This document shows, one piece after another, positions 2,336-32,310 of a stretch of 64,000 nt of DNA. The notes under the pieces were generated by a model. That model ran no database searches, was not told the origin of the DNA, and saw only the letters and a program-made list of their open reading frames with translations. Origin of the DNA: Clarkia xantiana subsp. parviflora (lineage: Eukaryota > Streptophyta > Magnoliopsida > Myrtales > Onagraceae); contig JAPTYO010000020.1 of the NCBI GenBank assembly GCA_036873135.1, forward strand, positions 2,782,081 through 2,846,080. The letters run 5' to 3'. The first letter of the stretch is position 1; each line of letters opens with the position of its first letter. A program made the translations under genes and the position numbers.

Positions 2336-2341
2336 TATAAT

Positions 2342-3631: not shown

Positions 3632-4274
3632 GAAGTAGGGTTGGACATGGAACCACCCTTGAACCGGTTCCGACCCGAAATGAAACTATTTAAAATAGTC
3701 CTGATACACAATGGTTCGGTTTTTGGCTTATCCTTATAAGAACTAGGACATAGCATAAATCCCGACAAATCTGAACTCCCGAGGAACCCGTCCCAAGCCC
3801 TTCCCGAAAAGCCCGTCCGAAATTGTGTCCGAGCCCGTATGGGAGGGACTTTTACTCCCAACTAGGGATCAGGCTAGGGCTATGGCTTTTTTTAGAAAAT
3901 ACATATTGTCTCGAGTTACTTACCTTAGTTCAACATTTTACAACCTAAATAATCTAACTATAGTAATTCACCATACTTGATTTATGTTGTGAATTTGATG
4001 GATGTGTTTGTGAACTTGATGTATATGTTCGTGAACTTAATGAATGTTTGAACTTGAACTTATATTTTGAGTTGAAACAAGAATTATTTTAATTTTATAT
4101 GTAAATTTGTGTTGTCCCAAACCCGCCCCGAATTAGGTAGTTCCGACCAAGTCGAGAATTTTTCAAATGTTTAACATCGGACTAGGGCTAGGGACAATAG
4201 TGGAAAATACCGAAAATTAGAATTAGAGACATTTTCCTGAAAAGTCCCGTCCATTTGTCCGGAGCTCACCCCTA
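3632..4274. mobile_element. Possible degenerate hAT-type element
   Basis: The left end TAGGGTTGGACATGG and the right end GAGCTCACCCCTA resemble the TAGGGGTG ends of the better hAT elements in this window, and the interior is rich in ccgaccc/gtcccg motifs. The flanks do not form a clear 8-bp duplication, so the boundaries are tentative. The surrounding 2900-4300 stretch has no gene I can support. Confidence 0.3.
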
Positions 4275-4327
4275 ATAAGAACTGGTCTGTTTGAAATCGA
4301 TTCGGAACTGTTCTGAAAACATCATAT

Positions 4328-5777: not shown

Positions 5778-5979
5778 CATCAGAATCAGATCTTGGAACA
5801 CATTCTAAAAAGTAGATAATAACCGAATTGCTAGCTGAATTTTTACTCAATTATAAATTACTATCTTGATTACTGCGTAAACAGCAGCCCAAGCTGATCT
5901 ATTGGATCTTCACTCGGTCCAAACTCCAAAAACTGTATTTTTATGGCCCAGCCCAACCTGTCTCTTATCTTTGTCTGCA

Positions 5980-6045
5980 ATGCATCGTCGTCTTTCTCAC
6001 CATTTTCTCGACCTCCTCAAATCTGCGGCATCCAACTTCCATTGA
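5980..6045 (+). promoter_or_regulatory. Possible upstream ORF in the leader of the UVR/SnoaL gene
   Basis: An ATG at 5980 opens a 21-codon frame ending TGA at 6043, ahead of a likely 5'-UTR intron (donor after gcgcag at about 6083, acceptor TTTTGCAG ending 6361). A TGGCCCAGCCCA block at about 5943-5955 resembles site II elements of plant housekeeping promoters. Whether the transcript starts early enough to include this frame is unknown. Confidence 0.3.
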
Positions 6046-6419
6046 CAGACACTCTCCAATCGGCGGGAGGTTGCTCTGCGCAGGTTAGGTTCTTCCGTCA
6101 TTCGATTCTGTGATTTGGAGGCAAGTAACTTTGAACTCATTGCCGATTTGTTCAGCTCTGTTTGCTATATATGCGTGATCGAGCTTCACTGAGCCTTTAG
6201 ATTTGTGCTTTTAGCTCGAAATCGAGATGAATTCGATTCAAAATTAGTGTATTATCCAATTTGAAGTGTAATTAACTTCTAGATAGAAGGTTTAGATTAA
6301 TCAACATTGAAAAGTTGTTCACTATTTGAACTTATTCCTATGTGGATGAATAATTTTGCAGGACTTGAGTTGCCTTTCCAGCTTCTCTCCTTGTTGATTG
6401 ATTGTTTGTATGTGAAAGG

Positions 6420-7796: not shown

Positions 7797-8582
7797 TTTG
7801 AGGAGGAACTAACTAGCTGAGTGAATCTTTCTGTTTATTATTATTTAGGGTTAAATTTTAAAAGGATCAAACAATTTCAAAGTATAGGTCATGCTTGATA
7901 TGGTATTTCAACTTATATTTGTTGCGATTGGATATCTAAAGCATCATATTTGTTGTTTTCCACTTTTTTTGTCTTGAAATGGACGAAATAAAAACATATT
8001 TCTAAGTATTAAAGAAACTTAAATCATGAGTTGACAAATCAGAAATTTTGGAAAAGTGAAAAGCATCCTATTATTGTTACTTATGAACGCTAATTTTAAT
8101 GTCTCGCAACATAATATATACTTCAGTCTGCTTTTTATAAGCATTAAATAAAACTAAATTATTAGCAATGAATCCGATAGCTCAGACAAATTTTTATAAA
8201 AAAAATTGTTACGGAAAAATACTAAAGTAAAAATCAGATAAAAAGTAACAAATCTAATATTTCAACCACTAATAACAACAAAAGTGAAATATCAAATCGC
8301 AACATAGTCTATATTTCAAATTGTAAACCATTTTTTTTATGTATTAAGTGTAAACCATAAATAACAAATATGAAACTTCGATATTAAATCGCAACATAGT
8401 CTATATACTTTAGATACTAGAATGTAACAATATATAGTGGTTTATAAATTCATGTAGAAAGGCAAACTTTTTACTACAAGAAGCTCTGTATGTATTTATT
8501 TTCTACAAACAAATTTATTTTACTCCTTGGAAGAACGAAAGAAGATGCAAAAGACCGAATCGGATCTTAAGCAGTTAGTTAA
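7797..8582. other. Intergenic region between convergent genes, with MITE-like sequence
   Basis: This is the 3' side of both the UVR/SnoaL gene and PGK. About 7848-8420 resembles the element in PGK intron 3: agggttaa near the left, ttttccacttttt-type sequence, a block around ggacgaaataaaaac, and repeated aatcgcaacatagtctata near the right. Its ends are not sharp and I see no clear target duplication. No coding sequence is visible. Confidence 0.4.
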
Positions 8583-11457
8583 TTACACGGCGACGGCAAT
8601 GGCCTCGTCAAGAGCAATGACACCAGGAAGCTCCTTCCCTTCCAACAGCTCCAAGCTAGCTCCACCACCAGTTGATATGTGGCTCATCACATTAGCCACT
8701 CCTACTTTCTCCACTGCCGCCACCGAGTCTCCTCCTCCGATGATCGTCGTCACACCTTTCCCGCTCAGCTCCGCCAACTTCTTAGCCACCGACTGTATTC
8801 ACCATAACACACCTCGGTTAATTACATTTACAAAAATGGTCGAATTATTCAGATGTAGATCACATGCCCCACTTTTTCTACCCAGATCGTGTCTCACGGT
8901 TGTGATCTTGACATATTTTCCTTCTAGGTTTCACCAATCACACCAAGTGCACGTGTCAAGATCGCAACGGTGAAGTGATCTGGATAGGAAGAGTGTGGCA
9001 GGTTATCTGAATTATTCAAGGCTTACCTCAGTTCCGACAGCAAATTTGTCGAACTCAAACACTCCCATTGGTCCGTTCCAGATAACGGTCTTGGTAGTTT
9101 CCAGGGCATCGTTGAATGTCTTAATGGAGTCGGGTCCAATATCCAATCCCATCCACCCATCTGGGATTTCAGTTGCGGGCACAATCTGCAATCCCAGTGA
9201 AATTTTAGATGAACCACTTAACCATAAATGTCATAAAACCTTAAGTTTTATAGATGAAGATGTGGTTTGATTTATAAAAATATATATACCTTGCTGTTGG
9301 CATCGGGTGCGAACTTGTCGGCAATAACAACATCAGTGGGCAACAGAAGAGAGACACCCTTTTCCTTGGCCTTTGCGAGGAGCGATGTTGCGAGTTCTAG
9401 CTTGTCCTCCTCGACTAGGGATGAGCCGACGGAGATGCCTTGTGCTTTGTAGAATGTGAAGATCATGCCTCCACCCAATAGAAGGATGTCACACTTCTCG
9501 AGAAGAGACTCGATCACTCCGATCTTGGATGACACCTTTGAACCACCGACAATGGCAGCAAATGGCCTCTTCGGGGTTGATACTGCTCCAACAAGGTAAT
9601 CCAATTCCTACCAAGAGAATGACATGAGAAAAATGCACTTGATTATAAGAACTGAAAACAGTTTCAACTGTAGTCCTTGTTGTTAATCGCGGTCTCGAAT
9701 TTAAAATGTTGATATTTGGTGTCTCAACTATCATATTGGTTGATTTCCACTTTTTTCTCTTTAAATTGATGGGACAAATACATATTTTTTAATCATCAAA
9801 TAAGCCTAAACCATGGGCAACAAATCGGATACTTAAAAAATGTGGAAAACATGTTTTTGTTGCTTAAAACGCTAATTTAACGCCAAAATCAGCCGAAAAA
9901 AGTGAAAAGTAAAAATCTGATAGGTGAGTCACCAAATATTAACATTTTGAATCTGAGACAGTGATTAGCAGCATGGGCTACAATTGGGACTGTTTTTAGG
10001 TTCTTAACCCTCTTAACTATGTCAACATCCAAAATGCATAGTGCTTATACCAGAAAAATGCACTTGATTCACCCTTAACCAAGTCTAAGTTTTTATCACT
10101 TTTGCCCCCAGAATGTGCTAAATGTTCATTTCTAACATATAATAGCAATTAGCCTTACAGGATTCATAAAGAGTTTCATATTTGCAGAAGTGTTATAGAG
10201 TGATAGAATAAAAATGCACCTTTTGCAAGAGGAACCCAGCAACTGAAGGCTTCAAGAACTTGGTGACACCTTCAGTGGATGCATGAGCTCTGTGTGCAGT
10301 TCCGAATGCATCGTTGACATATAGATCAGCTAATGCAGCGAGCTTCTTTGCAAACTCGGGGTCGTTCTTCTCTTCCTCCTTGTAAAACCGAACGTTTTCA
10401 AGGAGAAGAACACTGCCCTCTGGAAGTGAAGCCACCAATTTCTCTACATCAGGGCCAATGCAGTCATCGGCTTTCACCACCTGATCAATCGACAATCCAC
10501 ATATCAACAAGAGGTCATACTGTATACTTGCAGAACAAGTCAAGATTCATGGCTATGCACATTGTAGTAAAAGTAAGCACCTCGATACCGAGGAGTTCGG
10601 ATAGCCTTGGAACCAGAGGTGCCAAGCTGTACTTTGGAGTCACTCCCTTCGGTCGTCCCTGAGAATTATATGGAACATAATTAGATGAGAAACCCTAAAC
10701 AGTATATGATTTGGTATAATCAGAGGTATAACCAAATATCAATGGCATGTAGTTACAGAGAGATTATGGCAATCATGATACAAATGTGATTAAGCTGCTA
10801 CTGAATTCTAAATTACCCAAGCATTACATACATACAAAATATCAAAGACGTAGGAATTAGGATCATACATTATTAACAGGGAGCAATTGATGGAAATCAA
10901 AGCACAATTCATCAATTAATAGAGCTCGAATTGGGGAAGTATCTGAAATTACAGAAAGAAAACCCTAATTGAGCATCTAATATGCATTATTTCAACTCAA
11001 ATTGATGAACAAGACGGAGGCGATAATGACGTACCAAGTGGCTGGTGAGGAGGACTTTAGCGCCTTTCTCGATCAAATACTTGATAGTGGGAATGGCGGC
11101 ACGAATCCTGGTATCGTCTGTGATGTTCTGGCTATCGTCCAGAGGCACATTCAAATCGGCCCTCACGAAAACCCTCTTCCCCTTCAGCTCGGCGGCGGAC
11201 AAGTCGCCGACGCTCTTCTTTGCATTGGAGATGACTCCGGCGGTGGCCTTCCGGGAGAAGGATCGGAGCTTGGATGCCACGTTGGCAGCCAAAAGAGGGT
11301 CAGCGGGGGCAAATCCGAGGCGGCGGAGGCCGGAGGAGCGGAGGCCGAGGCCGGAGGTTGGGAAGTGGGCGGCGACAGGGGTGCGGCTCCGGGAGGAGGT
11401 CGTGGATGAGGTGGAAGGGAGAAGAGAGAGGGTGGTGGGAGCAGCGGCGGAAGCCAT
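8583..11457 (-). CDS. PGK: Phosphoglycerate kinase, plastid form
   Basis: Six exons on the minus strand: 11457-11035, 10658-10581, 10480-10220, 9607-9290, 9185-9027 and 8792-8583. All join in phase 0 and give 482 residues, close to the usual length of plant plastid PGK. The enzyme interconverts 1,3-bisphosphoglycerate plus ADP with 3-phosphoglycerate plus ATP, in the stroma for the Calvin cycle. Residues 1 to about 75 are an S/T/R/A-rich transit peptide. Signature segments are intact: [13 protein letters not shown] (about 96-108), SHLGRPKG (139-146, split by intron 1), [16 protein letters not shown], the nucleotide-binding GGGDS (about 432-436) and STGGGAS (about 453-459). No stops or frameshifts are seen. 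MITEs lie in introns 3 and 5. It is divergent from the mTERF gene. The leader argues against the cytosolic paralogue. Confidence 0.97.
8852..9008. mobile_element. Small MITE in PGK intron 5 (157 bp)
   Basis: Inverted ends carry gatctTGACA/TGTCAAGATC and cagatc motifs. The flanks repeat gaattattca exactly (8842-8851 and 9009-9018), a 9- to 10-bp duplication suggesting a Mutator-like origin. A relative lies at about 63735-63950. Confidence 0.65.
9643..10010. mobile_element. Foldback MITE in PGK intron 3
   Basis: The left part (taagaactgaaaacagttt, then ttaatcgcggtctcgaattt) is the inverted relative of the right part (ending gtttttaggttcttaaccc). Its core contains ttgatttccactttttt and acatatttttt. 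Related sequence occurs at 15719-16460 and 36935-37450. An 18-bp sequence, agaaaaatgcacttgatt, is repeated outside it at 9627-9644 and 10052-10069. Confidence 0.6.
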
Positions 11458-12069
11458 TGATTTGGAAGAAGGGAAGAGCCACCGAGAGTGTAGTGTGAGT
11501 AGTAGTAGGTGGGTGCGGCGGATATAGATGAGTGAGTGTATCCACTCACTGTTCAGCAGAAATGGCGATATCTGATCTGAGGATGGTTGATCTGTGGTGA
11601 TGGATGAAGATGTGGACGTGAGACGATGACAAGAAAGGGAAGGGGATGATGAAGAAATGAAAAGATTGGGTGTTGTTGTTAGGGGTGGCAACGGAGCGCG
11701 GGGCCCCGCCGATCCGCAGTGCCCCGCCCCGAATTTGACCCGAAAATCCGTGACCCGCCGCCGTTGGGCCATCAGGCCATTAACATGACAAAACGGATAT
11801 GTCATTTTCATTCGTTGCTCCGCCGCCGTGTAATCAAGCCTCTGGATATCTGTGGCGGCGGTCAGCCCTTTACTGCAAACCACCAACTGGAAGCTCATTA
11901 CCTGATCCCCAAGTTTCATATTACATTATCTTCTTCATCCTCAGACGGAATCATATAACCCTACATTTACTACTGAACGTCATATATCAGATACGAGTAA
12001 CCGAAGGAGAAGCCGCGGAATCTCATCTCTGCAACTCCCACTCCCACTCCTTCGCCGGAATCGTACCAC
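11458..12069. promoter_or_regulatory. Divergent PGK / mTERF intergenic promoter region
   Basis: The two start codons lie 612 bp apart and face away from each other, so both promoters must sit here or overlap. For PGK a CTATATCC stretch lies at about 11519-11526 (minus strand). For mTERF there is catataacc at about 11950. TTGGGCCATC at about 11763 contains TGGGCC, a site II-like motif often found upstream of plant housekeeping and organelle-related genes. A fragment starting TAGGGGTGGCAACGG at 11680 matches the left end of the hAT element at 25469, so part of the region comes from a transposon. Confidence 0.5.
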
Positions 12070-13377
12070 ATGAAAGCTAAAGCATCTTCCCTAGCTGTCT
12101 CCCTCCGGCCACTGCTCTCATTTGCCCGCGAACGACTCCGTTTCTGCTCAATCTCCGTGTCAACAAACTCGCCCACCAACTGTTCGACGATATGTCCCAC
12201 AGAGACTGAAGAGAACTCCGCAGAGCCATCTGGTCGGCTAGAAGACAGTCCCGATGTAGGGCCGACAGAGGTGCTTCAACAGTGGAGTTGCAGGAGCAAC
12301 GATGTATCAATCTCCGTGTCAACCAACTCGCCCACCAATTGTTTGACGAAATGTCCTACCGAGGCTGAAGAGAACTCCGCAGAGCCATCTGGTCAAGAAG
12401 ACTTTCCCGATGTAGGGCCAACAGAGGTGCTTCAACAATGGGGTTGCAGCAGCGATGAGATATCGAAGCTAATTGCTCGTCGCCCTTCCCTCCTCCGAGC
12501 CAACCCTGCCCACCTCGAATCCAAGCTCACCATCCTCAGCCGCATCGGCATCACAGGCCCGGACCTCGTTAAAGTGGTCAACTGCCGCCCAAGGTTCCTC
12601 GGCTGCCGCATCAACCACCACCTGGACGAGCGGCTCGAGTTCTTCACCTCACTCTTCGGCTCAAAAGAAATGCTCCGCAAGGCTGTCATCCGAAACCCAT
12701 CTTTCCTCACCTACGATTTCCACCACAAGATCAAACCTGTGATCGAACACTACGGAAATTTAGGTGTAGCAGGGAATAACCTGGTATCAATGCTGCTTTC
12801 CCGACCCACCATGATCCCAAGATCATCGTTCGAAGAAGAGAAAATGGAGTATATCCGCCGAACCGGCGTCTCCCCCACATCCAAGATGTACAAATACGTA
12901 GTGACCCTCATTGGCATCTCCAGGCTCGAGACAATCCGTGAAAAAGTTACCAACTTTGAGCGATTCGGGTTCAGTGAAGACGAGGTTTTGATCCTCTTCG
13001 GCCGATCCCCGCTGCTTTTAACACTGTCAGTAGACAAGATACAGAGAAACATGACATTCTTGCTGGGGACGATGAAGGTGCCTGCAAAAGCAGTGGTTCA
13101 GTATCCATATCTTCTATACTGCAACCTCGAGGCGGTGCTCAAGCCACGGATGGCTCTTGCAGGGAAGATCCAGGATATGGGTCTTCAGCCTGAAGTGAAA
13201 GGCCCGAACATTTTTCGAGCCTTGAGAATGACGGAGAAGAGATTCTTGAAATTCTTCGTTCGGTGTCACCCGAAGGATGTTGCAGATGAGCTCATGGTGT
13301 TGTATAATGATGCGAAATGTGTGAAGCGTTTGGCTGAATCTTCGAAGAAATATATCCATAAAGGTTTTCCGTTCTGA
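12070..13377 (+). CDS. mTERF domain-containing protein, organelle-targeted, intronless
   Basis: Single exon, 435 residues. The N-terminus (about 1-26) is rich in S, R, K and L without acids, as in a mitochondrial or plastid presequence. From about residue 117 to 420 the protein consists of the roughly 30-residue helical repeats of the mTERF family: LQQWGCSSDEISKLIARRPS, then LTILSRIGITGPDLVKVV, RFGFSEDEVLILFGRSPLLL and MKVPAKAVVQYPYLL. Plant mTERF proteins bind organellar nucleic acids and act in transcription, termination or splicing; the target of this one cannot be read from sequence. Residues 27-79 are duplicated as 80-131. It resembles the large intronless, clustered plant mTERF subgroup. 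The ATG is the first in this frame after upstream stops. Confidence 0.9.
   Translation: MKAKASSLAVSLRPLLSFARERLRFCSISVSTNSPTNCSTICPTETEENSAEPSGRLEDSPDVGPTEVLQQWSCRSNDVSISVSTNSPTNCLTKCPTEAEENSAEPSGQEDFPDVGPTEVLQQWGCSSDEISKLIARRPSLLRANPAHLESKLTILSRIGITGPDLVKVVNCRPRFLGCRINHHLDERLEFFTSLFGSKEMLRKAVIRNPSFLTYDFHHKIKPVIEHYGNLGVAGNNLVSMLLSRPTMIPRSSFEEEKMEYIRRTGVSPTSKMYKYVVTLIGISRLETIREKVTNFERFGFSEDEVLILFGRSPLLLTLSVDKIQRNMTFLLGTMKVPAKAVVQYPYLLYCNLEAVLKPRMALAGKIQDMGLQPEVKGPNIFRALRMTEKRFLKFFVRCHPKDVADELMVLYNDAKCVKRLAESSKKYIHKGFPF
12148..12462 (+). repeat. In-frame tandem duplication inside the mTERF gene
   Basis: Two units of 159 and 156 bp (12148-12306, 12307-12462) encode near-identical segments that begin SISVSTNSPTNC and end VLQQWxCxSx. 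They differ by scattered substitutions and by one residue near GRLEDS versus GQEDF. The second copy leads straight into the mTERF repeats. Confidence 0.95.
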
Positions 13378-15093
13378 TTGAGTAGCCGGAAATCTGCAGT
13401 TGCTGTCTCGTTCGTTCATTCGGGGTTTCGATAAATGGAGGACGAGGTCACTGGTTTGAGAATGATGGGAAGCAGCAAGGGGTTTTATTCATTGCCTTGC
13501 CTTGCATTCCAAGGAATGCAAGTTGATGGTTTTGTAATCTATGGGATTTGATTGATATATATTATCAGATCATGGATAGTTTTCTTTGATACAATTTAGT
13601 TAGTTGGACTTTGTTTAATCCAAGACGTTTAATTTCAATTGTACCCCAAAGCCTTAGACTTAATTTGTTAATTACCACACAATTTACTGTTCAATCGAAC
13701 ACATTGCACACATTTCAATGTATCAATGTTCAATTTAATTTCACTAAACGCGAAAAACTTCATTTAAATGCTTATTTCCGTTCAATTTTACAAAAAAAAA
13801 AGTAATATATAACATAATAATAAATATACCGTATCAATTCAGCAAGCAATTTTAAAAATTCGAACATTGATTTGATTATTAACGATTTATCTTAATATGT
13901 ATATAATATTATTTACAACAGTGATAGACATTCCGACTTCCCAAATGTAAACATTATGACTCCCTTTAATTGGCAAATATGTTTTAAATGGTAGCTTAAA
14001 ATGTCATTTTTATTTGAACACACAAGTTGGAATTTTTGCATTCCGAGAATCAAAATGTTAATCATCTTTCTATTATTTAAAAATTGATAGTCGTTCCAAA
14101 ACAAAATCGCGAGATGTTCCAAAAGTATAGAGGATGGCATTAGGTGTAATCTTTTTGAACTTTTAAAGAGAAATAACTAACTACTCTAAAGTCGGAACAT
14201 CTCCTGATTTCTTGTCGGAATGATAATCATTTTTCTATTTATGAGTAGTATTTGGTTTTTCCCTCCGTCTCCATCTCTAGTTACCCTTTTGCAGCCTCCG
14301 GCCAAAGATTCAAATATGTGTTGCATTATAAAAACAAAGTCACATCTTTACCTATTACTTTAAAAATTTAGTACAGTTTGTTAAGTAGTGAATCTAAACT
14401 TTTAACATAGTATGAGAGTCTGATTCCGATTGGTGGTATAGAGTTTGTATCTCATTTGTTGATTCCACATACCAGATTATCCAAGTTGAGTCTGAAATTT
14501 ATTAAAATTTAGTTTAAATTTGGATTTGAAAAGCCCGATTGCAGTGTTGAGTTTATGCTCTTTATTGACTCTACAAACCAGATTGTCGGTCTAGACATGA
14601 GAGTGGAGTCCGAGTCTGGGTGTAATAGTGGAGTGTTGATATCTCACTGTGAGCACGGTTTAGTATATCACACCGTTGGTTTAGAAAATTGAGAGAACCA
14701 TATAAGTAAGTAGACTACTCTTATCACCAATTATTTTTAGGATGAAATACTAATTATATAAGGAAAATGATAGACAATCCGACACTTACAAGCCGACAAA
14801 TTTTGAATGTGAAGGACTCTAAAAAAACCATAAAAGTTAATCAGAATTACAGTCCTACCATACAGACACATACACAATTCGAAACCTCGGAATTTCTATC
14901 ATTTCTCTTTTATACATATAAAAAATTGTTTTATATTGATTTGTTGAGTTTTGAGAAATATAACATTATTATCTAATATAAATACGAACAAAAGGAAAAT
15001 AGATTGAATATCACATTGATTGACGAATATACAAATGAAGGAATTTCCAAAACTGTAACAGTACCCCAAACCAAACCCGAGCAATTGTCAGTC
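13378..15093. other. Intergenic, AT-rich, no gene seen
   Basis: The 3' flank of mTERF is followed by AT-rich sequence. A stretch at 13913-14240 and one near 14765 share gatagac(a)(a)ttccgac-type segments, suggesting old repeat copies. Short open frames lack coding character. Confidence 0.5.
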
Positions 15094-16468
15094 TCACATA
15101 TTAAGATCGAACTGATACTTCTTCTTGGATTTCAATTTATTGGACCCAGGCAACGGAACCACCGAGCTGCACCGTGGACACCTCGGATTCCTCCTTGAAA
15201 TCAATACATACAGTAAACAGCTCGGACACCCCGCCGCCACCTGTTTATCCTCCTCCTCCGAAGAAACCGACGAAGACGATGAAGGAGACGCCGATTTCCG
15301 GAACATTCCGCCGCCGCGGCTTTTCCGAGACTGGTCCCGCTCCGCTCTCTCCAGCGCCGACTTCACCTTGTCGAGTGTGCACACGCTCTGGTAGTTCCAT
15401 GACGAGGCCGCCGACGAGGATGACGATGATGACGTCAGCTGCAGGTCCAGGAAATGGGCGTCGCTTTGGCGGACGAAGTCGTGGTGGCGGTGGCTGGGTG
15501 TGTGGGTGTGAGTGTGAGATGGGTAGGATGAATAAGACGGCGGGAGGTTTAGGTCTTGGAGCTGGTTTGGGCTGCCGCCGGAGTGGTGGCGTCTGCTGCG
15601 GTGGTTGTCGGAGGAAGATGAACTGCATCTCTGCAAGTAGACTTTTCCAGACTGCAGCAAGAGTAACTAATTAATTGGTTGTATATTAGGACCAAGTCCT
15701 CTACATACATAATTATTAGGGGTTAAGAACTTAAAACAGTCCAAATTATATGCAGGCTGTTGCAGATTTTTTATTTTTTTTCGACTGATTTAGTTTTACT
15801 ATTGATTCGTTTTAATAAAAATATTTTATCTTTTATTTTTCAAAATATTAGATTTGTTACTCATAATTTAAATTTATTTAGGATATAGAGGCGGATTTTT
15901 TTTTTTTTTTTTTTTTTTTCAGAAGACAATAATTGAATTAGAGTCAACTAACCAGTTACAGTCTTACAGAAAAGCTTAGGGAGTACATGTAAGCTTTTAA
16001 AGGGTAAAAACTGACGATAATTACAAATTTTAAAATAAAAATTGCACATCACAAAAAATTGAAGGGGATAATTGTCTCTTTCGTCCTATACTTGAAATTA
16101 TCTGATGCTTAAAAATCATATTTTTATTTCTCCAGTTTTAAGAAGAAAAAAGCGGAAATCAATTAATCTAATAGGCTTTTTTTTGGCAAACTAATCTGAT
16201 TAGTTCGAACACTAAATATTAACATTTTAAATCCGAGACAGCGATTACCAACATCGTCTATAGTTGAAACTATTTTTAGGTTCTTAACCCTACATTAAGT
16301 ATTGATGCTTAAAAAATATATTTTTGTTTCTTCAATTTTAAGAAGAAAAAAAAAAGTGAAAATTAATCAATCTGATAGTTCGAACAGAATATGAACATTT
16401 TAAATCCGAGGTAACGATTAACAACATCATATCTATCGTTTAAACGGTATTTAGGTTCTTAACCCTAA

Positions 16469-16540
<72 letters not shown>

Positions 16541-16669
16541 TTTAAGTATAATTAGTACCTGGAGATCAAGGCGCTTCTCCCAGCCGGAAGGGACCTGAAC
16601 GTCGAGGTCTAGCTCTTGGGAATCCATGTCATTGTTGCCTAGTAAGTCTCGAGTGTAAATGGCGGCCAT
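15094..16669 (-). CDS. Small EAR-motif / CxxC zinc-ribbon-like plant protein (GIR1-like family, tentative)
   Basis: Two exons on the minus strand, 16669-16559 and 15651-15094, join in phase 0 to give 222 residues. The C-terminus has a CPSC (C179, C182) and CPRC (C195, C198) pair, as in a zinc ribbon, within GCPSCLLYVLISRRNPRCPR. Before it is a conserved-looking block (NYQSVCTLDKVKSALERAER). LQDLNLPPS (68-76) fits the DLNxxP type of EAR motif and LDLQL (105-109) the LxLxL type; both types recruit TOPLESS corepressors in plants. I recall related unnamed Arabidopsis proteins and the smaller GIR1/GIR2 repressors with a similar Cys pair, so a nuclear adaptor role in repression is an inference. Ser and His runs fill the middle. 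The intron (15652-16558) holds MITE-like sequence and a TA microsatellite. Confidence 0.8.
15719..16460. mobile_element. MITE-like sequence in the intron of the CxxC gene
   Basis: The left end aggggttaagaacttaaaacag and the right end ctatttttaggttcttaaccct (about 16278) are inverted. A second, partial copy ending ggtatttaggttcttaaccct lies at about 16282-16460. Both resemble the element in PGK intron 3. Confidence 0.5.
16472..16539. repeat. (TA)n microsatellite
   Basis: About 68 bp of uninterrupted TA in the intron, close to the first donor of the CxxC gene (donor at 16558). Confidence 0.95.
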
Positions 16670-16734
16670 TGTCTTCTCTCTCTCTCTCTTTATCTGGTGC
16701 TAAGGTTTCAGAAGACAGAGAGATAGATACAGGG

Positions 16735-16741
16735 TTTTATA
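16735..16741 (-). promoter_or_regulatory. TATA box of the CxxC gene
   Basis: On the minus strand the sequence reads ATATAAAACC about 66 bp upstream of the ATG at 16669. The region between is GA-rich on the minus strand (CT-rich on plus), typical of a plant 5' leader. The position fits a leader of roughly 35 nt. Confidence 0.5.
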
Positions 16742-16940
16742 TGAAGATGTGAATATATATATAGAAGAAGAAGAAGAAGACACGAGGCAGGAGGATTTTA
16801 CAGATTTGGACAGAGTTTTAAATTCCATGCAGCTGTTTGGGCCAGACATAATTAATTAGTATATGGTCCGGTCTAGTTTAGAAGTTTGGTCCGACCCAAC
16901 CATCCGGTTCGCGCAATAAGTACGTATTATCGTTATGGTA

Positions 16941-17736
16941 TCTATATATATTATAAATTCTGAAGAAAAGATAATAATAGAGTGATGTGGAGCTGATTTT
17001 ATTTTTTAACGTTAATTGATGCATTTATGACAATTGAACTAACGGTTTTGTAGGTATTAACTCCATAGTATTAATTGCACTAAGGAGCTGAGGGTTTTTA
17101 AGTTGCAATTAATCGCAATTAAAATTTCGCTGATTTCGAACCGTTAAAAATTTAATGTATACAATTAATCGCAATTAAAATTTCTGATCGTTCAAGATTC
17201 AATGTATGCAATTAATCGCAATAAAATTTCTCTGATTTCGAGCTGTTCAAGATTCAATGTATGCAATTAATCACAATTAAAATTTCGGACTGTTCAAGAT
17301 TCAATGTATGTAATTAATCGAAATTAAAATTTCACGGATTTTTAACAGACACTTGACGCGGAGCCGGCGAACGAAGATACCAGGCGGTACGGGCGGCTGA
17401 CAGTCTCAGTGGCAGAGCTATCTCTATCTCCGGCGAGATATCGTCGGTGGTCATCGAAGCCATATCTGTTGAAGAACAGACGCATGACACGGATCCGACG
17501 ACCAAAGGTAGCATGCGGTACAGACATCTAAAATTTATTTGTTAATTTGTGCAATTGTATTTTATGGTTCAAAATTTTCAGTCTTTCGTTGAGTTTTTCA
17601 AATTTTAGACTGATATTTTATTTAAAAATAGTGTTCCAACATATTACAATTAGTAAATAAATTTCATCGAATATTAATTTGTTAAATATACATATTTGGT
17701 AAGTCACTCCGCGCGATGCGCGGGAAATCTACCTAA
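16941..17736. mobile_element. Non-autonomous Helitron (796 bp)
   Basis: The 5' end is TCTATATATATTATAAATTC preceded by A. The 3' end has the hairpin CCGCGC-GAT-GCGCGG followed about 10 nt later by CTAA and then T in the flank. TC start, CTRR end, a GC hairpin and A/T insertion without target duplication are the Helitron hallmarks. It contains tandem repeats (17103-17335) and a GC-richer stretch (about 17340-17535) that may be captured. Confidence 0.75.
17103..17335. repeat. Tandem repeat, unit about 55-60 bp, about four copies
   Basis: Units begin caattaatcgcaattaaaat and contain gttcaagattcaatgtat. Repeats of this kind are common inside Helitrons. Confidence 0.85.
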
Positions 17737-18455
17737 TAAGTGTTCATCCAAAAACTGTATTTATTATACATACTAAATATATATGACTATGTTAATTCAC
17801 AGTTTATACACATTTTAGCTAACAGTTGAGACAAACACTCCTTAAAGTGCTTGCGTTCTGTTTTGTTTAATAATATGTAAATTAAAGCTCGAGTTCGAGC
17901 TTATTAACTTAGGGTTCGAACTCACCTAGCTAGTCAAAAGAAACTTATTTGTTTCAAAAGATAGGCTTGAACACATGCAGGTGAATTAGACCGGGTATTG
18001 TTTGGTTGGATCAGACCGGATCCCTTAATTAATTAACACGATTAAGAAAATAAGAGGAAGAGACAAATTAATGATTTAGGGTGTAATTAAGATTCCTAGT
18101 TTGAATAAAAGAATTTTGATTAAGATCATTAAATAGTAAAAGTATTAATTAATATTTATTATTATAATAACTAAAGGATCGTAGGGGGAAGGAATAATAA
18201 ATATTAGTAGTTGTGGAGCATTTAAAGGAGAAGTGGGGGAGGAGAGGGAAGTAGAAGAGATATTATAGGGGGACTTAATTATCAAAGCTTAACCAAGGCA
18301 TAGATAGTGCATTGCATTGAATGCCACAATTCCATTCAGTTATTTTGTGTTGCCTTGCATTGTGTGTCGTGATGTTGACACTTGTAACACTATATCTCCT
18401 TTTTTTCATTTTAAAATTAAAGAATGATCACCACTTGCAATAGTGATCTAGCTAG
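17737..18455. other. Intergenic, nothing recognised
   Basis: AT-rich sequence with no coding character between the Helitron and the gypsy LTR. Confidence 0.5.
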
Positions 18456-19139
18456 TGTTCGATGGATCACGCGCATCGAGATAATCGTTAGGTGTCTATT
18501 ACTGACGTCAGATTCTTGTATGCCGATCGCTTCTTCTTGTAATCCGTTCCTCGCTAGCCTGCAAAAAGGGTGAGCTGGGGGTGTGCCCAGCGAACCATCT
18601 CCGATACTTAAATGAGAATACAATTCTAGAGAGAGGAAGTAGAGAGAAAGCATAGCTCAATAGTAAAGTTAGACTCAAAACCCTTGAATGGGAGGTCTTG
18701 ATCTCTATTTATAGAGATCAAGAGTCCTTACTCCCGGTCAAGGATAGTGCTAACCCGGGATAGTAGATATTCGCGGATAGTAACAGGGTTTGGACCTGTT
18801 TGGCATCGGAATGGTCCACTATGTTTGGTAGGGTCCGCGTGTGTAAGTGTTGGGTATTGGGCGGGTCGACGAGGCCTTCAGAGGCGTAGCCCGGGTGAGA
18901 GTCACCCGGGCGTCGGGACCGCCCTCCAGTTGGACAACTAGTCTAACCGAAGGGTGCTTCAACCAGATTAGTTTGCGGTTCGGCGGGTTCGCCCTCGTCC
19001 GGACCGTTTTGTGTTTCGAGATATGTTTTAGTGTCCTTAGCTGTTTTAAGGCCAAAGTTTCGGTTTGCAACCGTGTGCGGGGTCAACGTGGCGACTAAGT
19101 CCAGACTATGACGAGCTCAAATTGGGTGTATATCCATCA
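18456..19139 (-). repeat. 3' LTR of the Tat-like element (684 bp)
   Basis: Begins TGTTCGATGG and ends TATCCATCA on the plus strand. A TATAAATA box lies on the minus strand at 18713-18706. The CTCCGATACTTAA block resembles CTCCGATGCTTAA in the solo LTR at 35157. The other LTR (31494) lacks about 420 bp of its middle. Confidence 0.85.
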
Positions 19140-22886: not shown

Positions 22887-23130
22887 GTTGCTTGTCATAG
22901 GTCACGTAAAGTGACATGCAAGGCAGATGCTTGTCAGAGGTCACGTGAAGTGACATGCAAGGCAGATGCTTGTCACATGTCACGTGAAGTGACATGCAAG
23001 ACAGATGCTTGTCAGAGGTCACACGAAGTGACATGCAAGGCAGATGCTTGTCAGAAGTCACGCGAAGTGACATGCAAGCATATGCTTGTCAAAGGTCACG
23101 TGAATTGACATGCAAGGCATATGCTTGTCA
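22887..23130. repeat. Tandem repeat, 39-bp unit, about six copies
   Basis: The unit is built from gatgcttgtcagaggtcac and gtgacatgcaaggca, starting near 22887, 22926, 22965, 23004, 23043 and 23081. It is translatable in both directions but codes for nothing recognisable. Confidence 0.95.
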
Positions 23131-23320
23131 GAGGTCGCATTGGGCGACTTGCAAGGAAATTCTTCTCCATAACTTGACAGAGGTCGTATTGGGCAACTTG
23201 CAAGGCAATTCTTCTCCATAGCTTGTCAAAGGTCGCATTGGGTGACTTGCAAGGCATTTCTTCTCCATAGCTTGTCAGAGGTCACATTGGGCGACTTTCA
23301 AGGCATTTCTTCTCTGTAGG
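23120..23320. repeat. Tandem repeat, unit about 53 bp, about four copies
   Basis: Units contain agaggtcgcattgggcgact, then tgcaaggcatttcttctcca. The gtcagaggtc core is shared with the 39-bp array, so this looks like an extended derivative. Confidence 0.9.
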
Positions 23321-23339
23321 TCGTTTTGCACGACTTGTG

Positions 23340-24110
23340 ATTTTCACCGTCGCTTGGTCCACTCCAAGTTGACATTGTAGCAAGACGCTACTTGCAATTT
23401 TGATGCGTTTTAAATCTGTTACTTGGTTACTTCCAGAAAAACGTTGTGGCAAGACGCTACCTGGCTAGTCTGAAGATGCGACTTGCGATGCTAATGCGCC
23501 TCAACATGGTTATTCTAAGGGACGCGACAGAGGTCGCTGGGTTCGACATGTAATTTTTACTATCCCTTGGTATTCTCCAGATGACGTTGCGGCAAGATGC
23601 TACTTGCAAATTTGATGCGTTTTGAATCTGTTATTTGGTCACTTCCAAAATAACGTTGTGGCAAGACGCTACCTGCCTAGTCCGAGGATGCGACTTGCGA
23701 TGCTAACACGCTTCAACATGGTTATTCCAAGGGACGCGACAGAGGTCACGGGGTGCAGCATGTATTTTTTACCATCGCTTGGTCCTTTCCAAGGCGACGT
23801 TGTGGCAAGACGCTACTTGCGAATTTGATGTGTTTTGCATCCGTCATTCGGTCACTTCCAAAATGACATTGTTGCAAGACGTTTCCTGGCTAGTCTGAGG
23901 ATGCGACTTGCGATGCTAATGTGCCTCAACATGGTTATTCCAGGGGACGCGACAGAGGTCGCGAGGTGCGACGTGTAATTTACCGTCACTTGGTCCTCTC
24001 CAAGGTGACGTTGTGGCAAGACACTACTTGCATATTTGTGTGTTTTGAATCTGTTATTTGTTCACTTTCAAGATAACGTTTTGCAAGACGTGACTTGCAG
24101 ATTTTAGGCG
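23340..24110. repeat. Tandem repeat, unit about 213 bp, about 3.5 copies
   Basis: The marker ttattccaagggacgcgaca recurs with spacing of about 212-214 bp (near 23507, 23719 and 23933), together with gttgtggcaagacgctac. The array lies between the antisense ORF and the coding region, the hypervariable 3' zone of Tat elements. Confidence 0.9.
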
Positions 24111-25053: not shown

Positions 25054-25468
25054 TCATTCTTTCCTCTTTTTCACTGTGCTCTGCTTCCTCCGTACCGACA
25101 GAGTTTTCTTGTCTTTATTGATGTTTGCTGTGACCATAGCGACGGTGTTGGGCTGCAGTGATTTACGCCTCATGGTGTTAACATAGCATTTCCTTGTCGT
25201 TGGTTGGTCCCCTAGCACTTCTCCAATTTTATTTTTCGTTGGGAACTTCATCTTTTGGTGTACGGTGGAGGGGAATATTCCATTTGGATTGATTTTTTTC
25301 TGCCTAGGATCCCGTTGTAGGCCCTAGGTGGTCCACTATTACAAAATTTACGTTCATTCGGAGCTGCGTCCATCCCTGCCCCAGCGTTACCGGCAAAGTG
25401 ATAGTTCCTAGAGGGTAGGTTGTCACTCTTGCGAAACCTATGAGTGGGAAATCCACTGGAGGTAAGTC
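25054..25468 (-). pseudogene. C-terminal half of gypsy protease and start of RT linker
   Basis: Reading down from 25468, the frame gives FPLIGFARVTTYPLGTITLP followed by LRMNVNFVIVDHLG, the typical second half of a Tat-type protease. Then MKFPTKNKIGEVLGDQPTTR (25251 down) matches the linker before RT. Stops and shifts interrupt it. It continues the protease half at 29170-29634, from which the hAT element separates it. Confidence 0.7.
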
Positions 25469-25827
25469 TAGGGGTGGCAACGGGTCACGGGTACCCGTTG
25501 ACCCGCGGAGCCCCGCCCCGTTTTGACCCGTTGACCCGCCGACCCGTGCCCCGTGGGACGGGTTCGGGTCTAGTTATCCATGGGGCGGGGCGGGTCCGGG
25601 TCAGGGGTCGCGGAGCCCCATAGACCCGCCCCGTAGCATATATATATTCTGTCGGCCATTCATTCATATCTAGGTGTTGGATTACAACTAGAACATGAAG
25701 AATCATCAACTCAAACTCTTTAATTTGGTGGAATGGCTTCATCCGCCGCGCAGCCGCCCACTTCATCTCTTTGGAGTTCTTCTCTGTGTTATTTTTATTT
25801 CTTTCTCATCGACTCCTTTTCTCTCTC

Positions 25828-25983
25828 CAATCAACTTTTATACCTCTCAAAACCTAGACATCTAAAACTCACCGTATCACTCTTTCACTTAAGGGACTAG
25901 ACACCCAATCAACTTTTATACCTCTCAAAACCTAGACATCTAAAACTCACCGTATCACTCTTTCACTTAAGGGACTAGACACA
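25828..25983. repeat. Tandem duplication, 78-bp unit, two copies
   Basis: caatcaacttttatacctct starts at 25828 and again at 25906, and the copies run on to ttaagggactagacac. The second copy abuts the TTC array. Confidence 0.95.
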
Positions 25984-25985
25984 AA

Positions 25986-28956
25986 TTCTTCTTCTTCTTC
26001 TTCTTCTTCTTCTTCTTCTTCTTCTTCTTCTTCTTCTTCTTCTTCTTCTTCTTCTTCTTCTTCTTCTTCTTCTTCTTCTTCTTCTTCTTCTTCTTCTTCT
26101 TCTTCTTCTTCTTCTTCTTCTTCTTCTTCTTCTTCTTCTTCTTCTTCTTCTTCTTCTTCTTCTTCTTCTTCTTCTTCTTCTTCTTCTTCTTCTTCTTCTT
26201 CTTCTTCTTCTTCTTCTTCTTCTTCTTCTTCTTCTTCTTCTTCTTCTTCTTCTTCTTCTTCTTCTTCTTCTTCTTCTTCTTCTTCTTCTTCTTCTTCTTC
26301 TTCTTCTTCTTCTTCTTCTTCTTCTTCTTCTTCTTCTTCTTCTTCTTCTTCTTCTTCTTCTTCTTCTTCTTCTTCTTCTTCTTCTTCTTCTTCTTCTTCT
26401 TCTTCTTCTTCTTCTTCTTCTTCTTCTTTCTTCTTCTTCTTCTTCTTCTTCTTCTTCTTCTTCTTCTTCTTCTTCTTCTTCTTCTTCTTCTTCTTCTTCT
26501 TCTTCTTCTTCTTCTTCTTCTTCTTCTTCTTCTTCTTCTTCTTCTTCTTCTTCTTCTTCTTCTTCTTCTTCTTCTTCTTCTTCTTCTTCTTCTTCTTCTT
26601 CTTCTTCTTCTTCTTCTTCTTCTTCTTCTTCTTCTTCTTCTTCTTCTTCTTCTTCTTCTTCTTCTTCTTCTTCTTCTTCTTCTTCTTCTTCTTCTTCTTC
26701 TTCTTCTTCTTCTTCTTCTTCTTCTTCTTCTTCTTCTTCTTCTTCTTCTTCTTCTTCTTCTTCTTCTTCTTCTTCTTCTTCTTCTTCTTCTTCTTCTTCT
26801 TCTTCTTCTTCTTCTTCTTCTTCTTCTTCTTCTTCTTCTTCTTCTTCTTCTTCTTCTTCTTCTTCTTCTTCTTCTTCTTCTTCTTCTTCTTCTCTTCTTC
26901 TTCTTCTTCTTCTTCTTCTTCTTCTTCTTCTTCTTCTTCTTCTTCTTCTTCTTCTTCTTCTTCTTCTTCTTCTTCTTCTTCTTCTTCTTCTTCTTCTTCT
27001 TCTTCTTCTTCTTCTTCTTCTTCTTCTTCTTCTTCTTCTTCTTCTTCTTCTTCTTCTTCTTCTTCTTCTTCTTCTTCTTCTTCTTCTTCTTCTTCTTCTT
27101 CTTCTTCTTCTTCTTCTTCTTCTTCTTCTTCTTCTTCTTCTTCTTCTTCTTCTTCTTCTTCTTCTTCTTCTTCTTCTTCTTCTTCTTCTTCTTCTTCTTC
27201 TTCTTCTTCTTCTTCTCTTCTTCTTCTTCTTCTTCTTCTTCTTCTTCTTCTTCTTCTTCTTCTTCTTCTTCTTCTTCTTCTTCTTCTTCTTCTTCTTCTT
27301 CTTCTTCTTCTTCTTCTTCTTCTTCTTCTTCTTCTTCTTCTTCTTCTTCTTCTTCTTCTTCTTCTTCTTCTTCTTCTTCTTCTTCTTCTTCTTCTTCTTC
27401 TTCTTCTTCTTCTTCTTCTTCTTCTTCTTCTTCTTCTTCTTCTTCTTCTTCTTCTTCTTCTTCTTCTTCTTCTTCTTCTTCTTCTTCTTCTTCTTCTTCT
27501 TCTTCTTCTTCTTCTTCTTCTTCTTCTTCTTCTTCTTCTTCTTCTTCTTCTTCTTCTTCTTCTTCTTCTTCTTCTTCTTCTTCTTCTTCTTCTTCTTCTT
27601 CTTCTTCTTCTTCTTCTTCTTCTTCTTCTTCTTCTTCTTCTTCTTCTTCTTCTTCTTCTTCTTCTTCTTCTTCTTCTTCTTCTTCTTCTTCTTCTTCTTC
27701 TTCTTCTTCTTCTTCTTCTTCTTCTTCTTCTTCTTCTTCTTCTTCTTCTTCTTCTTCTTCTTCTTCTTCTTCTTCTTCTTCTTCTTCTTCTTCTTCTTCT
27801 TCTTCTTCTTCTTCTTCTTCTTCTTCTTCTTCTTCTTCTTCTTCTCTTCTTCTTCTTCTTCTTCTTCTTCTTCTTCTTCTTCTTCTTCTTCTTCTTCTTC
27901 TCTTCTTCTTCTTCTTCTTCTTCTTCTTCTTCTTCTTCTTCTTCTTCTTCTTCTTCTTCTTCTTCTTCTTCTTCTTCTTCTTCTTCTCTTCTTCTTCTTC
28001 TTCTTCTTCTTCTCTTCTTCTTCTTCTTCTTCTTCTTCTTCTTCTTCTTCTTCTTCTTCTTCTTCTTCTTCTTCTTCTTCTTCTTCTTCTTCTTCTTCTT
28101 CTTCTTCTTCTTCTTCTTCTTCTTCTTCTTCTTCTTCTTCTTCTTCTTCTTCTTCTTCTTCTTCTTCTTCTTCTTCTTCTTCTTCTTCTTCTTCTTCTCT
28201 TCTTCTTCTTTCTTCTTCTTCTTCTTCTTCTTCTTCTTCTTCTTCTTCTTCTTCTTCTTCTTCTTCTTCTTCTTCTTCTTCTTCTTCTTCTTCTTCTTCT
28301 TCTTCTTCTTCTTCTTCTTCTTCTTCTTCTTCTTCTTCTTCTTCTTCTTCTTCTTCTTCTTCTTCTTCTTCTTCTTCTTCTTCTTCTTCTTCTTCTTCTT
28401 CTTCTTCTTCTTCTTCTTCTTCTTCTTCTTCTTCTTCTTCTTCTTCTTCTTCTTCTTCTTCTTCTTCTTCTTCTTCTTCTTCTTCTTCTTCTTCTTCTTC
28501 TTCTTCTTCTTCTTCTTCTTCTTCTTCTTCTTCTTCTTCTTCTTCTTCTTCTTCTTCTTCTTCTTCTTCTTCTTCTTCTTCTTCTTCTTCTTCTTCTTCT
28601 TCTTCTTCTTCTTCTTCTTCTTCTTCTTCTTCTTCTTCTTCTTCTTCTTCTTCTTCTTCTTCTTCTTCTTCTTCTTCTTCTTCTTCTTCTTCTTCTTCTT
28701 CTTCTTCTTCTTCTTCTTCTTCTTCTTCTTCTTCTTCTTCTTCTTCTTCTTCTTCTTCTTCTTCTTCTTCTTCTTCTTCTTCTTCTTCTTCTTCTTCTTC
28801 TTCTTCTTCTTCTTCTTCTTCTTCTTCTTCTTCTTCTTCTTCTTCTTCTTCTTCTTCTTCTTCTTCTTCTTCTTCTTCTTCTTCTTCTTCTTCTTCTTCT
28901 TCTTCTTCTTCTTCTTCTTCTTCTTCTTCTTCTTCTTCTTCTTCTTCTTCTTCTTC
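25986..28956. repeat. Expanded (TTC)n / (GAA)n microsatellite, about 2971 bp, about 990 units
   Basis: The plus strand is TTC repeated with only about nine 1-bp phase slips (near 26429, 26893, 27216, 27845, 27900, 27987, 28013, 28199 and 28210). The longest uninterrupted tract is 28211-28956, about 248 units. The 1003-residue K/R/E open frame across it is a by-product. GAA/TTC tracts of this size are known to form triplex DNA and to silence nearby genes. Assembly length error is possible. Confidence 0.97.
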
Positions 28957-29169
28957 ATCTTCAGTGGAGGACTAGCATTGGTTAGACAAGCAGCATCAAC
29001 TCAGGGCGGGCGGATATCCGCGGGTCGCTCTGTAGGATTTTTTTTACCCCTAAGACCCGCCTCGCGATGTGTATGGGGCGGGTGCGGGTCGACCACGTCG
29101 ACCCGCGGGGCGGGTCCGGATCTGACGATACCCGCCCCGCCCCGACCCATTGACACCTCTAGGTAAGTC

Positions 29170-29634
29170 CATATTGGATTTTCCCAACTCTTCCAGCACT
29201 CGCACGTAGAGGATGTCAGCCGAGCTTCCTCCACCGACGAGTATTCTTTTGACGTTGAAATTAGCAATCTCCATCGTTATGACCAAAGCGTCGTCATGTG
29301 GAAAGACGACGTGGTTCATATCTTTTCCAGAGAACTGAATGATCAACTCTTTTTCCGGCCTTGGCCTCTTTCCCCATTTTGTCATTGATTCCGCTTGGGA
29401 GGCGTATACCTCTCTTGCGTTGGATGTTTGACCTCCCGCGGCTTGTCTGCCGTGGATTACATTGATCGTCCATCTTTTGGTGGGAGGAGGGTTGATATCC
29501 ATTTTCTCATTCCGTTTGGCTCTCGGAGTTGGTCTGGTAGGCGGGCTTCTTGCTCTTTTTCCTCCATGATCACGTAGTGTTTCAGTTCTCCGCGTTGGAT
29601 TGTGTTGTTTATGCTCAGTTTCAGACTGAAACAC
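29170..29634 (-). pseudogene. N-terminal half of gypsy (Tat-like) aspartic protease
   Basis: Minus-strand frame with LIIQFSGKDMNHVVFPHDDA, then VKRILVGGGSSADILYVRVL. The family motif at the active site is normally LVD(x)GSSADIL; here Gly stands where the catalytic Asp is expected. The frame runs into the hAT element at 29161 and resumes at 25468. Confidence 0.75.
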
Positions 29635-31235
29635 TCATTTGTTTCATGTCCCCACACTTCATTATTATCACACCACTTATTCTTCTCTGAGCCTACTTGG
29701 TCGTTTTGCCATCTGGCTGGGGGTACCCACAATCTTCGTTGTTTCATCTATCTAACGATAATTGATGAAGACGCATTCAAGGGAACGAACTTGATGACGT
29801 TTATGTCCTTAGGTTTTTGGAATTCACCTAGTTGCATTCTTCTTTGTGGGGGGTGCAATTTTTGTTGTTTGTCACTGGGCGGCCCAAGAGGTGGTTTTTC
29901 CCTTGTAGCTTTGCTGCATTCTTCCCTTCCTGTTAGTGCACTTGCTTTTGCTCGCTTGTTTGTTCTGAATATTTTCAAATCAATATGTGATTTTACTCGC
30001 GCTGCTAGTTCTTCAAGGGCGTTGACTGGCTTTTTAGCCATTATTTTCCGCCAAAGTTGAGCCAAGACGGCCCAAGTTCCTTATGAAAGCTCTGACGATT
30101 TTGCCTTCCTGTCATATCCCCTTGAATATCCGTCAAGTTCTGGTTGAAGCAAGTGTAGTAACTACTTCGTCGTGCTCTTGACGGGAGTCATCGATGGAAT
30201 TTGATCCTTTTAACAACTAGAGTTCGCCTAGGTATCGCTTGAGGAATTTAGCTTTCAGATACGGCCATGATGTGACACTTTCTTATGACAGGCCAAAAAA
30301 CCAATGCAATGTCATCCCTGTCAGGGTTGTTGGGAACATGAGGGCTATATGGTTTTCGTTGTTTGTTCTCCCTAGAAGGGAAGCTTCACGTTGCTGAATA
30401 TGTTCCAAAGGGTCCCTTTTCCCACTATACTTATATATCTTCGTTGTATTTAAACCATCCAGGATGCGAGTGTTCATAATTTCTTGTGTGAATGGGCGGG
30501 AGGCATTTTCACTCTAGGAGTGCATCACATTCGTTTTGCGTTCATTCATCTTCTTTACAATCAATGCTTCTATCTCCTCTGGAGTCAATGCCAATGGAGG
30601 CGGGTTACGATCTCTTGAGGGTATGCGAAGCTTGCATTCGGCTTGCCGGCTTGTCGTTGGGCAGTGTTCTTGATATTCCTGGGAGTATGGGTCGTAAGAG
30701 TACCATGGCTGGCTGTACTGGTACAGATGGAGGGATGGTGTAGGTGGCTGTCTCCAAGGTTGAGGTGGGGTGTCTCTTCTCCCATTGGAGTGTATGACCA
30801 TGTCCCCGTGGAAGCTTGGTTATGTGGTTGTGCAGGAGATAGGGGTGGTTGCATTCCCATTGTAGCAGGTATTTCTTCATCCTGTCTTGGATGTTGCCGT
30901 GTCCCTGCCGGGGTGCAGTGGTGCTGCTGTGCCGGTGGCACTTGTCTTTCTCCTTGGTTTCTAAGATGTTCTCTGTAAGCCAACAAATCATCCAACGCGG
31001 ACATGAAATCCGGTGTCACTGTAGGAGCTCCCCGTGAGTACATCAGACGATGGGGGGGGGGGGGGGGGTACTCCATGAGCGTGGTGATTGCACGAGGGCA
31101 TATCGTATGATGGCATTCCATATGGGAACTCTTGAGAGGGCATTCCATATTGGAATCCTTGTGCAGGCATTCCCCGCTGGACCATGTCGCGAGGTCTCCA
31201 TGTTGGGTTGTTCACGAACTATTGGAGTCAACGAG
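29457..31235 (-). pseudogene. gag region of the Tat-like element, several broken frames
   Basis: On the minus strand: a low-complexity N-terminal part rich in P, M, G and H (31231-30600), the retrotransposon gag core IYKYSGKRDPLEHIQQREAS followed by FPTTLTGMTLHWF (30477-30283), then LEELAARVKSHIDLKIF (30065-29748), and the end domain KNKWCDNNEVWGHETNECFS (29747-29457). The order matches a Tat-type gag. At least three frame changes separate the parts. A run of about 20 G lies at 31050-31068. Confidence 0.75.
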
Positions 31236-31493: not shown

Positions 31494-32310
31494 TGTTTGA
31501 TCACACGCGTCGAGATGCTCGCTCGGTTTCAATCACTGACGCAGATCCTTGTATGTCGATCTCTTCCAACCGGATTAGTCCGCGGTCCGGGCGAGTTCGC
31601 CCCTGTCCAGACTGTTTTGTGTTTCAGGATGTGCTTTAGTGTCCTTAGCCGTTTTAAGGCCAAAGTTTCGATTTGCAACCGTGTACGGGGTCGGCGTGGT
31701 GACTAAGTCCATACTAAGAAGAACTCAAATTGGGTGTATATAGGGGTGAGCTCGGGACGGGACGGGCGGGCTTTTGTCTGAGCCCGAGCCCGAGCCCGAA
31801 AATTTCGGGACTCATATTTTTTGCCCGAGCCCGAGCCCGAGCCCGAACCTAAAGGAAATGTCCCGCCCGAGTCGGGACATCGGGATTCGGGCTCGGGCTA
31901 GCCCGAATTTGAACCCAAAAAAAAAAAAAAAAAATCCTAATATGAGGTTCATCCATTTCAAATACATGCAAGTTCAACACATCAATACAAAATTCAATAA
32001 GTTCAAACATCATCCATAATCTAATTCTAGGGTTTTTTTATTTTAACTATAGTAAAGTTACTTAAACTATAGTTACTAGACTTAGGTTAAACTTAAATAT
32101 ATATAATATATACATATATTCGGGCGGGCTCGGGACTTTCGGGCTTTTTAAGAAAAAGCCCGAGCCCGAGCCCGACTTGGGAAGAAAAATCCCGCCCGAC
32201 CGGGCTCGGGCTACATCTCGGGACGGGATTTTCGGGACGGGCTCGGGTCGGGATTTTCGGGCCTTCGGGCTTTTCGGGCTTCTTGCTCAGCCCTAGGTGT
32301 ATATACATCA
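31494..32310 (-). repeat. 5' LTR of the Tat-like element, internally deleted and interrupted by a hAT MITE
   Basis: TGTTTGATCACACGCG to TATACATCA aligns to the ends of the LTR at 18456-19139. The middle (counterpart of about 18530-18950) is missing; the join lies at a shared cttc, suggesting deletion between short direct repeats. The MITE at 31741-32295 lies in the remaining part. The LTR promoter TATA is within the deleted part. Confidence 0.8.
31741..32295. mobile_element. hAT MITE (555 bp) with cccgag-rich ends
   Basis: TAGGGGTGAGCTCGGG to GGCTTCTTGCTCAGCCCTA, with an exact 8-bp duplication ggtgtata at 31733-31740 and 32296-32303. Subterminal regions are iterated gagcccgagcccga and cgggctcggg in inverted order; the core is AT-rich. 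Confidence 0.9.

Follow-up and report, generated by a model that had tools for sequence, protein, structure and literature searches.

A nearly pure TTC/GAA array of about 990 triplets enclosed by a hAT-like element in a likely plant genome

Intron 1 of FXN (Friedreich ataxia) contains the same triplet as the array described here, in a long pure tract of comparable order that can far exceed a thousand repeats. In plants, the expanded IIL1 alleles of Arabidopsis Bur-0 have been scored as 200+ repeats (PMC5006647), and the tract spans 0–36 units in global accessions (PMC5006647, PMC12177298). Simple sequence repeats (SSRs) make up 6.87% of the Vanilla planifolia genome, with AAG/CTT accounting for more than 90% of them (PMC13340410), and a GAA satellite has long been known in barley (PMC11447152). 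As summarised in the accessible sections of a review, the Xenopus elements miDNA4 and Xstir are short inverted-repeat elements with an internal tandem array that is able to lengthen (PMC12628747). The rice element nDart1-0, a non-autonomous hAT, is 607 bp long and GC-rich, with terminal inverted repeats (TIRs) and an 8-bp target duplication (PMC10199049). Huge GAA/TTC expansion in plants and MITEs with expanding internal tandem arrays are each already known. To our knowledge, the units of miDNA4 and Xstir are not GAA/TTC. The open-access literature searched, which was covered largely by titles and abstracts, yielded no report of one hAT-like element with some 990 triplets in a pure array.

The array lies in a 64-kb window, which is the whole stretch of DNA analysed. 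Unlike the FXN tract, it lies within a transposon and in none of the genes found, likely in a plant, and no phenotype is known for it. The IIL1 expansion is likewise a large expansion of the same triplet in a plant; however, it is intronic and tied to a growth defect, and the accessible parts of its description mention no transposon (PMC5006647, PMC12177298). The Vanilla repeats share the triplet class, the very large scale in a plant and the reasoning on triplexes and replication barriers, whereas they are spread genome-wide, mainly in central chromosome parts, and are not described as lying inside single transposons in the available text (PMC13340410). Barley offers GAA/TTC tracts both in its GAA satellite and in HvuSat02-444, whose arrangement is transposon-like and inverted. 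However, perfect and degenerate triplets are mixed in barley, the satellite loci are visible by FISH, and in HvuSat02-444 the tracts make up the inverted repeats rather than the interior, according to the portions of the report consulted (PMC11447152). The Xenopus arrays differ in their satellite-like units, and miDNA4 is a Tc1/mariner MITE rather than a hAT (PMC12628747). Finally, nDart1-0 resembles the element described here in its length of about 600 bp (722 bp here when the array is left out), GC-richness, TIRs and 8-bp duplication, but it has perfect 19-bp TIRs and about 72% GC, comes from rice, and is described in the accessible text with no mention of an array (PMC10199049).

The array and its most interrupted part are as follows.

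25986..28956, + strand: (TTC)n/(GAA)n array with nine one-T slips and no purine
27845..28209, + strand: stretch with six of the nine slips, a possible weak consensus or read junction (clustering P ~0.008)

By direct count on the + strand, the array is 2,971 nt long (about 990 triplets) and consists of 1,979 T and 992 C, with zero purines; an A at 28957 forms its right border. TRF called 25986–28962, with 994 copies and a 99% match. There are nine interruptions, each a gain or loss of one T within a TT pair: two gains (26427 and 28209) and seven losses (26893, 27216, 27845, 27901, 27987, 28013 and 28198). Base substitutions are absent over all 2,971 nt. The clean tracts of at least 8 units measure, in order, 147, 155, 108, 209, 19, 28, 9, 61 and 249 units. 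The first-pass annotation had described nearly 3 kb of almost pure TTC/GAA with roughly nine single-base slips, and its coordinates proved exact; its longest clean tract of about 248 units compares with 249 units (28210–28956) in our count. Like the expanded repeats of the FXN and IIL1 type, the tract is long and pure, and its 2,971 purine-free nucleotides make it a pure polypurine/polypyrimidine tract, the sort of sequence from which triplexes arise in the FXN system. The claim that it exceeds most plant examples holds against the 200+ repeats of IIL1 (PMC5006647), but less so against the large AAG/CTT expansion known in Vanilla (PMC13340410), where the comparison is by genome share and not by array length.

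The array also stands out within the window. The runner-up among perfect simple repeats is 67 bp long, there is only one other TTC/GAA run of at least 4 units (15 bp, 16764–16778), and (TTC)4 occurs 957 times, against a mean of 0.02 in shuffles of the window. As TTC/GAA contains no stop, all six frames of the array are open simply from its composition, and we rejected it as coding sequence. Array ORFs of about 1,000 aa are found at 25936–29166, and gene-finding programs may report them as proteins built from one to three residue kinds. Block duplication within the array was rejected as well, as the clean tracts of at least 8 units show no repeated spacing.

The sequence around the array has the following structure.

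25469..29161, unstranded: non-autonomous hAT-like element, 3,693 bp, with TIRs alike at 12 of 15 positions and an exact 8-bp target-site duplication
25461..25468, unstranded: left copy of the target-site duplication, GGTAAGTC, an exact match to the right copy
29162..29169, unstranded: right copy of the target-site duplication, GGTAAGTC, an exact match to the left copy
25469..25483, + strand: left TIR, TAGGGGTGGCAACGG, which pairs with the right TIR
29147..29161, unstranded: right TIR, TAGAGGTGTCAATGG in inverted reading, alike with the left TIR at 12 of 15 positions
25469..25648, unstranded: left GC-rich subterminal region (first 180 bp, 68% GC) with repeated GACCCG and GGGGCGGG motifs
28957..29161, unstranded: right element end (205 bp, 61% GC) with GC-rich subterminal GACCCG/GGGGCGGG motifs and the right TIR
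25827..25982, + strand: perfect tandem duplication with a 78-bp unit, separated from the array by three bases (AAA)

The array is thus enclosed, as had been proposed, by a transposon with an exact 8-bp target duplication, GGTAAGTC being found on both sides of hAT-like ends. As an exact 8-bp duplication together with short TIRs at both ends fits hAT, we refer to the element as hAT-like; membership beyond these ends and the duplication would be an extrapolation from sequence. The left subterminal region contains nine GACCCG and four GGGGCGGG motifs, counting both strands. We take the TIR letters of nDart1-0 to resemble those of this element. The two strands of the flanks give 120,558 15-mers, of which a single one, at the 11680 end discussed below, matches the left TIR as well as its partner does; matches with at most three mismatches number three in the window versus 0.57 expected in shuffles. 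The right element end has no other match in the 64-kb window. An encoded transposase, as expected of an autonomous hAT, was not found by Pfam in the 10 of 13 non-array ORFs of at least 30 aa that were scanned; the best match among them was DUF5556 (E 0.043, below the cut-off). The 106-aa frame at 25488–25805 (− strand) has no protein relatives up to E 10. Without the array the element measures 722 bp (517 + 205), a part to which the label MITE would fit, a MITE family being a short element in many similar copies. A pyrimidine-rich stretch (81% at 25793–25840) lies near the array.

Two pieces of a coding frame flank the element.

25307..25468, − strand: downstream part of a coding frame that is likely from a retroelement, in frame with 29164–29634 (− strand) after discounting 3,701 bp
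29164..29634, − strand: upstream part of that coding frame (gag/protease is likely), with 40% identity over 107 aa to the ENA protein P0121

The discounted 3,701 bp correspond to the element plus one duplication. With three frames possible, the agreement across the insertion site lends slight weight to a single interrupted frame. The P0121 match stops short of the insertion point, and P0121 has no match to the downstream piece; P0121 itself gave only zf-XS (E 0.089, below the cut-off) and no PDB match. An overlapping frame at 29460–29747 (− strand) matches the CLIP1 zinc knuckle (E 0.0084, below the Pfam cut-off), which would suit a gag protein. The frames flanking the element presumably recall Ty3/gypsy gag/protease motifs. 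The Ty3/gypsy gag/protease label comes from this likeness, the frame agreement and one 40% protein match, and together they suggest that the element's host is likely an old Ty3/gypsy-type retroelement. Pfam gave nothing above the cut-off in ten target-region pieces and some others, so this retroelement seems degenerate already; the remaining sub-cut-off matches are weak and were taken as chance. A direct repeat of about 175–179 bp (18957–19133 and 31563–31741, 86%) may represent the remains of its long terminal repeats. To the left of the element, the likely retroelement region contains tandem arrays of 39-, 49- and 212-bp units (22889–24090). To its right, a run of 17 G is found at 31052–31068, where the consensus may be uncertain.

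Next, we consider how the array arose. Our preferred reading, to which we assign a probability of about 0.6, is that a non-autonomous hAT-like element is nested in a likely old Ty3/gypsy-type retroelement, and that its array probably arose by recent growth in place, with a short TTC tract of ordinary kind as its seed, likely by way of triplex formation, fork stalling and restart. The zero substitutions place the divergence of the array from perfect TTC at no more than 0.1% (95% bound), and thus the array is either young or constantly renewed. Plant substitution rates are 6.5e-9 to 1.3e-8 per site and year. Under these rates, and absent homogenisation, the last renewal would date to at most about 78,000–155,000 years ago. 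That the array grew after the insertion, rather than before transposition, appears likely.

The nine slips bear on a competing account, in which the array is real and its length is an assembly product, with flank reads joined inside the repeat and a true length that falls below or exceeds 2,971 nt. Ordinary mutation would also produce substitutions: were these half of all changes, the absence of any among the nine would have a probability of 0.002, and the slips are therefore consensus errors or local slippage. They seem special to the array, as the 1,374-bp open mTERF frame to the left of the element contains no frame-breaking one-base indel where about four would be expected at the slip rate of the array (P 0.016), in a control that is biased by having been picked as an open frame. 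The excess of losses over gains (7:2) provides no evidence on its own (sign test P 0.18). The slips are probably errors of the long-read consensus rather than old mutations, although their spectrum alone does not separate error from real slippage, and this leaves the exact length of the array unproven. Six of the nine cluster within 365 bp (27845–28209; P ~0.008 under uniform placement) and all are one-T indels, as a poorly covered join might give, and loss of HiFi coverage at GA-rich sequence is described for the human T2T assembly in the accessible part of that report (PMC9186530). However, neither the flanks nor the target duplication show any break or inconsistency, and the long clean tracts (249, 209, 155 and 147 units) give no sign of a broken consensus. 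Moreover, ordinary long reads can span a 3-kb array. We therefore regard an artefactual length as unlikely.

It had also been suggested that the array points to an element family able to spread expandable triplets. Under this account, the family would carry long TTC tracts heritably, and transposition would seed expandable GAA/TTC loci genome-wide. The element that encloses the entire array is indeed complete and has an exact target duplication, and a Xenopus MITE offers a possible parallel, with an internal tandem array that can lengthen and give rise to satellites (Scalvenzi and Pollet, as cited in the accessible text of the review PMC12628747). The window contains one related hAT left end, at 11680–11742 (81% over 63 bp to the left end of the array-bearing element), where it overlaps a PGK frame in the latter's upstream part and lies close to the mTERF frame. 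The left end stands alone, as a search of the window found no right end for it, and no TTC run of at least 3 units occurs within 400 bp of it; with the right end missing, it argues weakly against the family account. A second hAT-like element, of another kind, is found at 31741–32295 (555 bp), with an exact 8-bp duplication, GGTGTATA. The left copy of the 86% repeat (18957–19133) retains the site without the insertion, at 19125–19132. No more than two consecutive GAA units occur in this second element, and, given that it is of a different kind, it and the 11680 end weigh only slightly against the family. The bound of 0.1% on substitutions, which suggests recent growth, may stand against heritable carriage as well, depending on the age of the element. 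In viral contigs, a TIR 17-mer and a 29-unit TTC pattern each matched three contigs; the six loci showed no similarity to the element ends or to the array-masked window (BLAST, E 1e-4), and their longest TTC tract was 33 units. Heritable carriage by a family seems improbable to us. The same holds for the stronger form of the idea, a mobile triplet-expansion cassette, in which the TTC/GAA tract of a hAT family passes the expansion threshold and each insertion plants a triplex-forming, expandable and silencing-prone locus; we would be surprised to see it confirmed. A last account has the array kept for an effect, such as heterochromatin nucleation or a replication block, that silences its retroelement host or the neighbourhood. 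In the accessible sections of the respective reports, the expanded IIL1 tract raises 24-nt siRNAs and H3K27me3 at 27 °C (PMC12177298), and AAG/CTT arrays in Vanilla are proposed as endoreplication barriers (PMC13340410), and both might by analogy lend it some plausibility. Yet the nearest host gene found (ORF 15094–15666) is 9.8 kb away, and the retroelement host, with no Pfam match above the cut-off in the scanned pieces, seems degenerate already, and we consider selection for such an effect very improbable. The array might form local heterochromatin through the small-RNA route described for IIL1. Growth in place, the reading that we favour, proposes no selected function.

Growth in place could have proceeded as follows. 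Expansion would have started from a short TTC tract within the element, near pyrimidine-rich sequence, and the pure purine/pyrimidine tract could have formed a triplex at which the replication fork stalled and reversed. Out-of-register restart of the fork would then have inserted numerous units in one step. Repair of a similar kind might also account for the perfect 78-bp duplication next to the array. Far from genes, there would be little selection against length. A model of this kind, in which a triplex forms, the fork stalls and reverses, and restart is out of register, has been put forward for large GAA/TTC expansions in human cells, and expansion was lowered both by triplex-disrupting compounds and by a triplex-stabilising one, as given in the available sections of that report (PMC10484681). 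The role of the triplex is therefore not simple. In a purified replication system, (GAA)161 caused only mild stalling and (TTC)161 none, according to the portion of the study consulted (PMC9296464), which by analogy would argue against a simple fork-stalling form of the model. By comparison with the human-cell system, fork stalling and restart would still be the likely route of expansion here.

The array constitutes a single-locus, nearly pure GAA/TTC tract of disease-allele scale inside a well-bounded element. A single site would therefore suffice for following instability, small RNAs and chromatin, and no known gene would be affected. Should copies elsewhere also carry long tracts, the element would supply expandable triplets in portable form.

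No host gene was found around the array among the frames scanned (20 of the 48 frames of at least 95 aa in 1–19000 and 33000–64000, plus part of those between), a scan in which small exons may be missed. As the array lies in no gene found, the phenotype logic of FXN and IIL1 is not directly transferable. Across the 64-kb window, neither Rfam at its gathering threshold nor a tRNA scan gave a match. The nearest host frame, 15094–15666, is a GIR1-like zinc-ribbon frame, beyond which lie the mTERF frame (12001–13374) and the PGK frame (10987–11925). Among the 120 listed of 297 relatives of the mTERF frame, the best is at 84%; those with names are from flowering plants, Punica at 66% and Vitis at 50% among them, which makes a eudicot the likely source of the DNA. 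Far to the right of the element there are copia pieces, and a tandem duplication of a 246-bp unit (61677–62181, 96%) lies inside a frame (61309–62736) with a copia-type reverse-transcriptase match.
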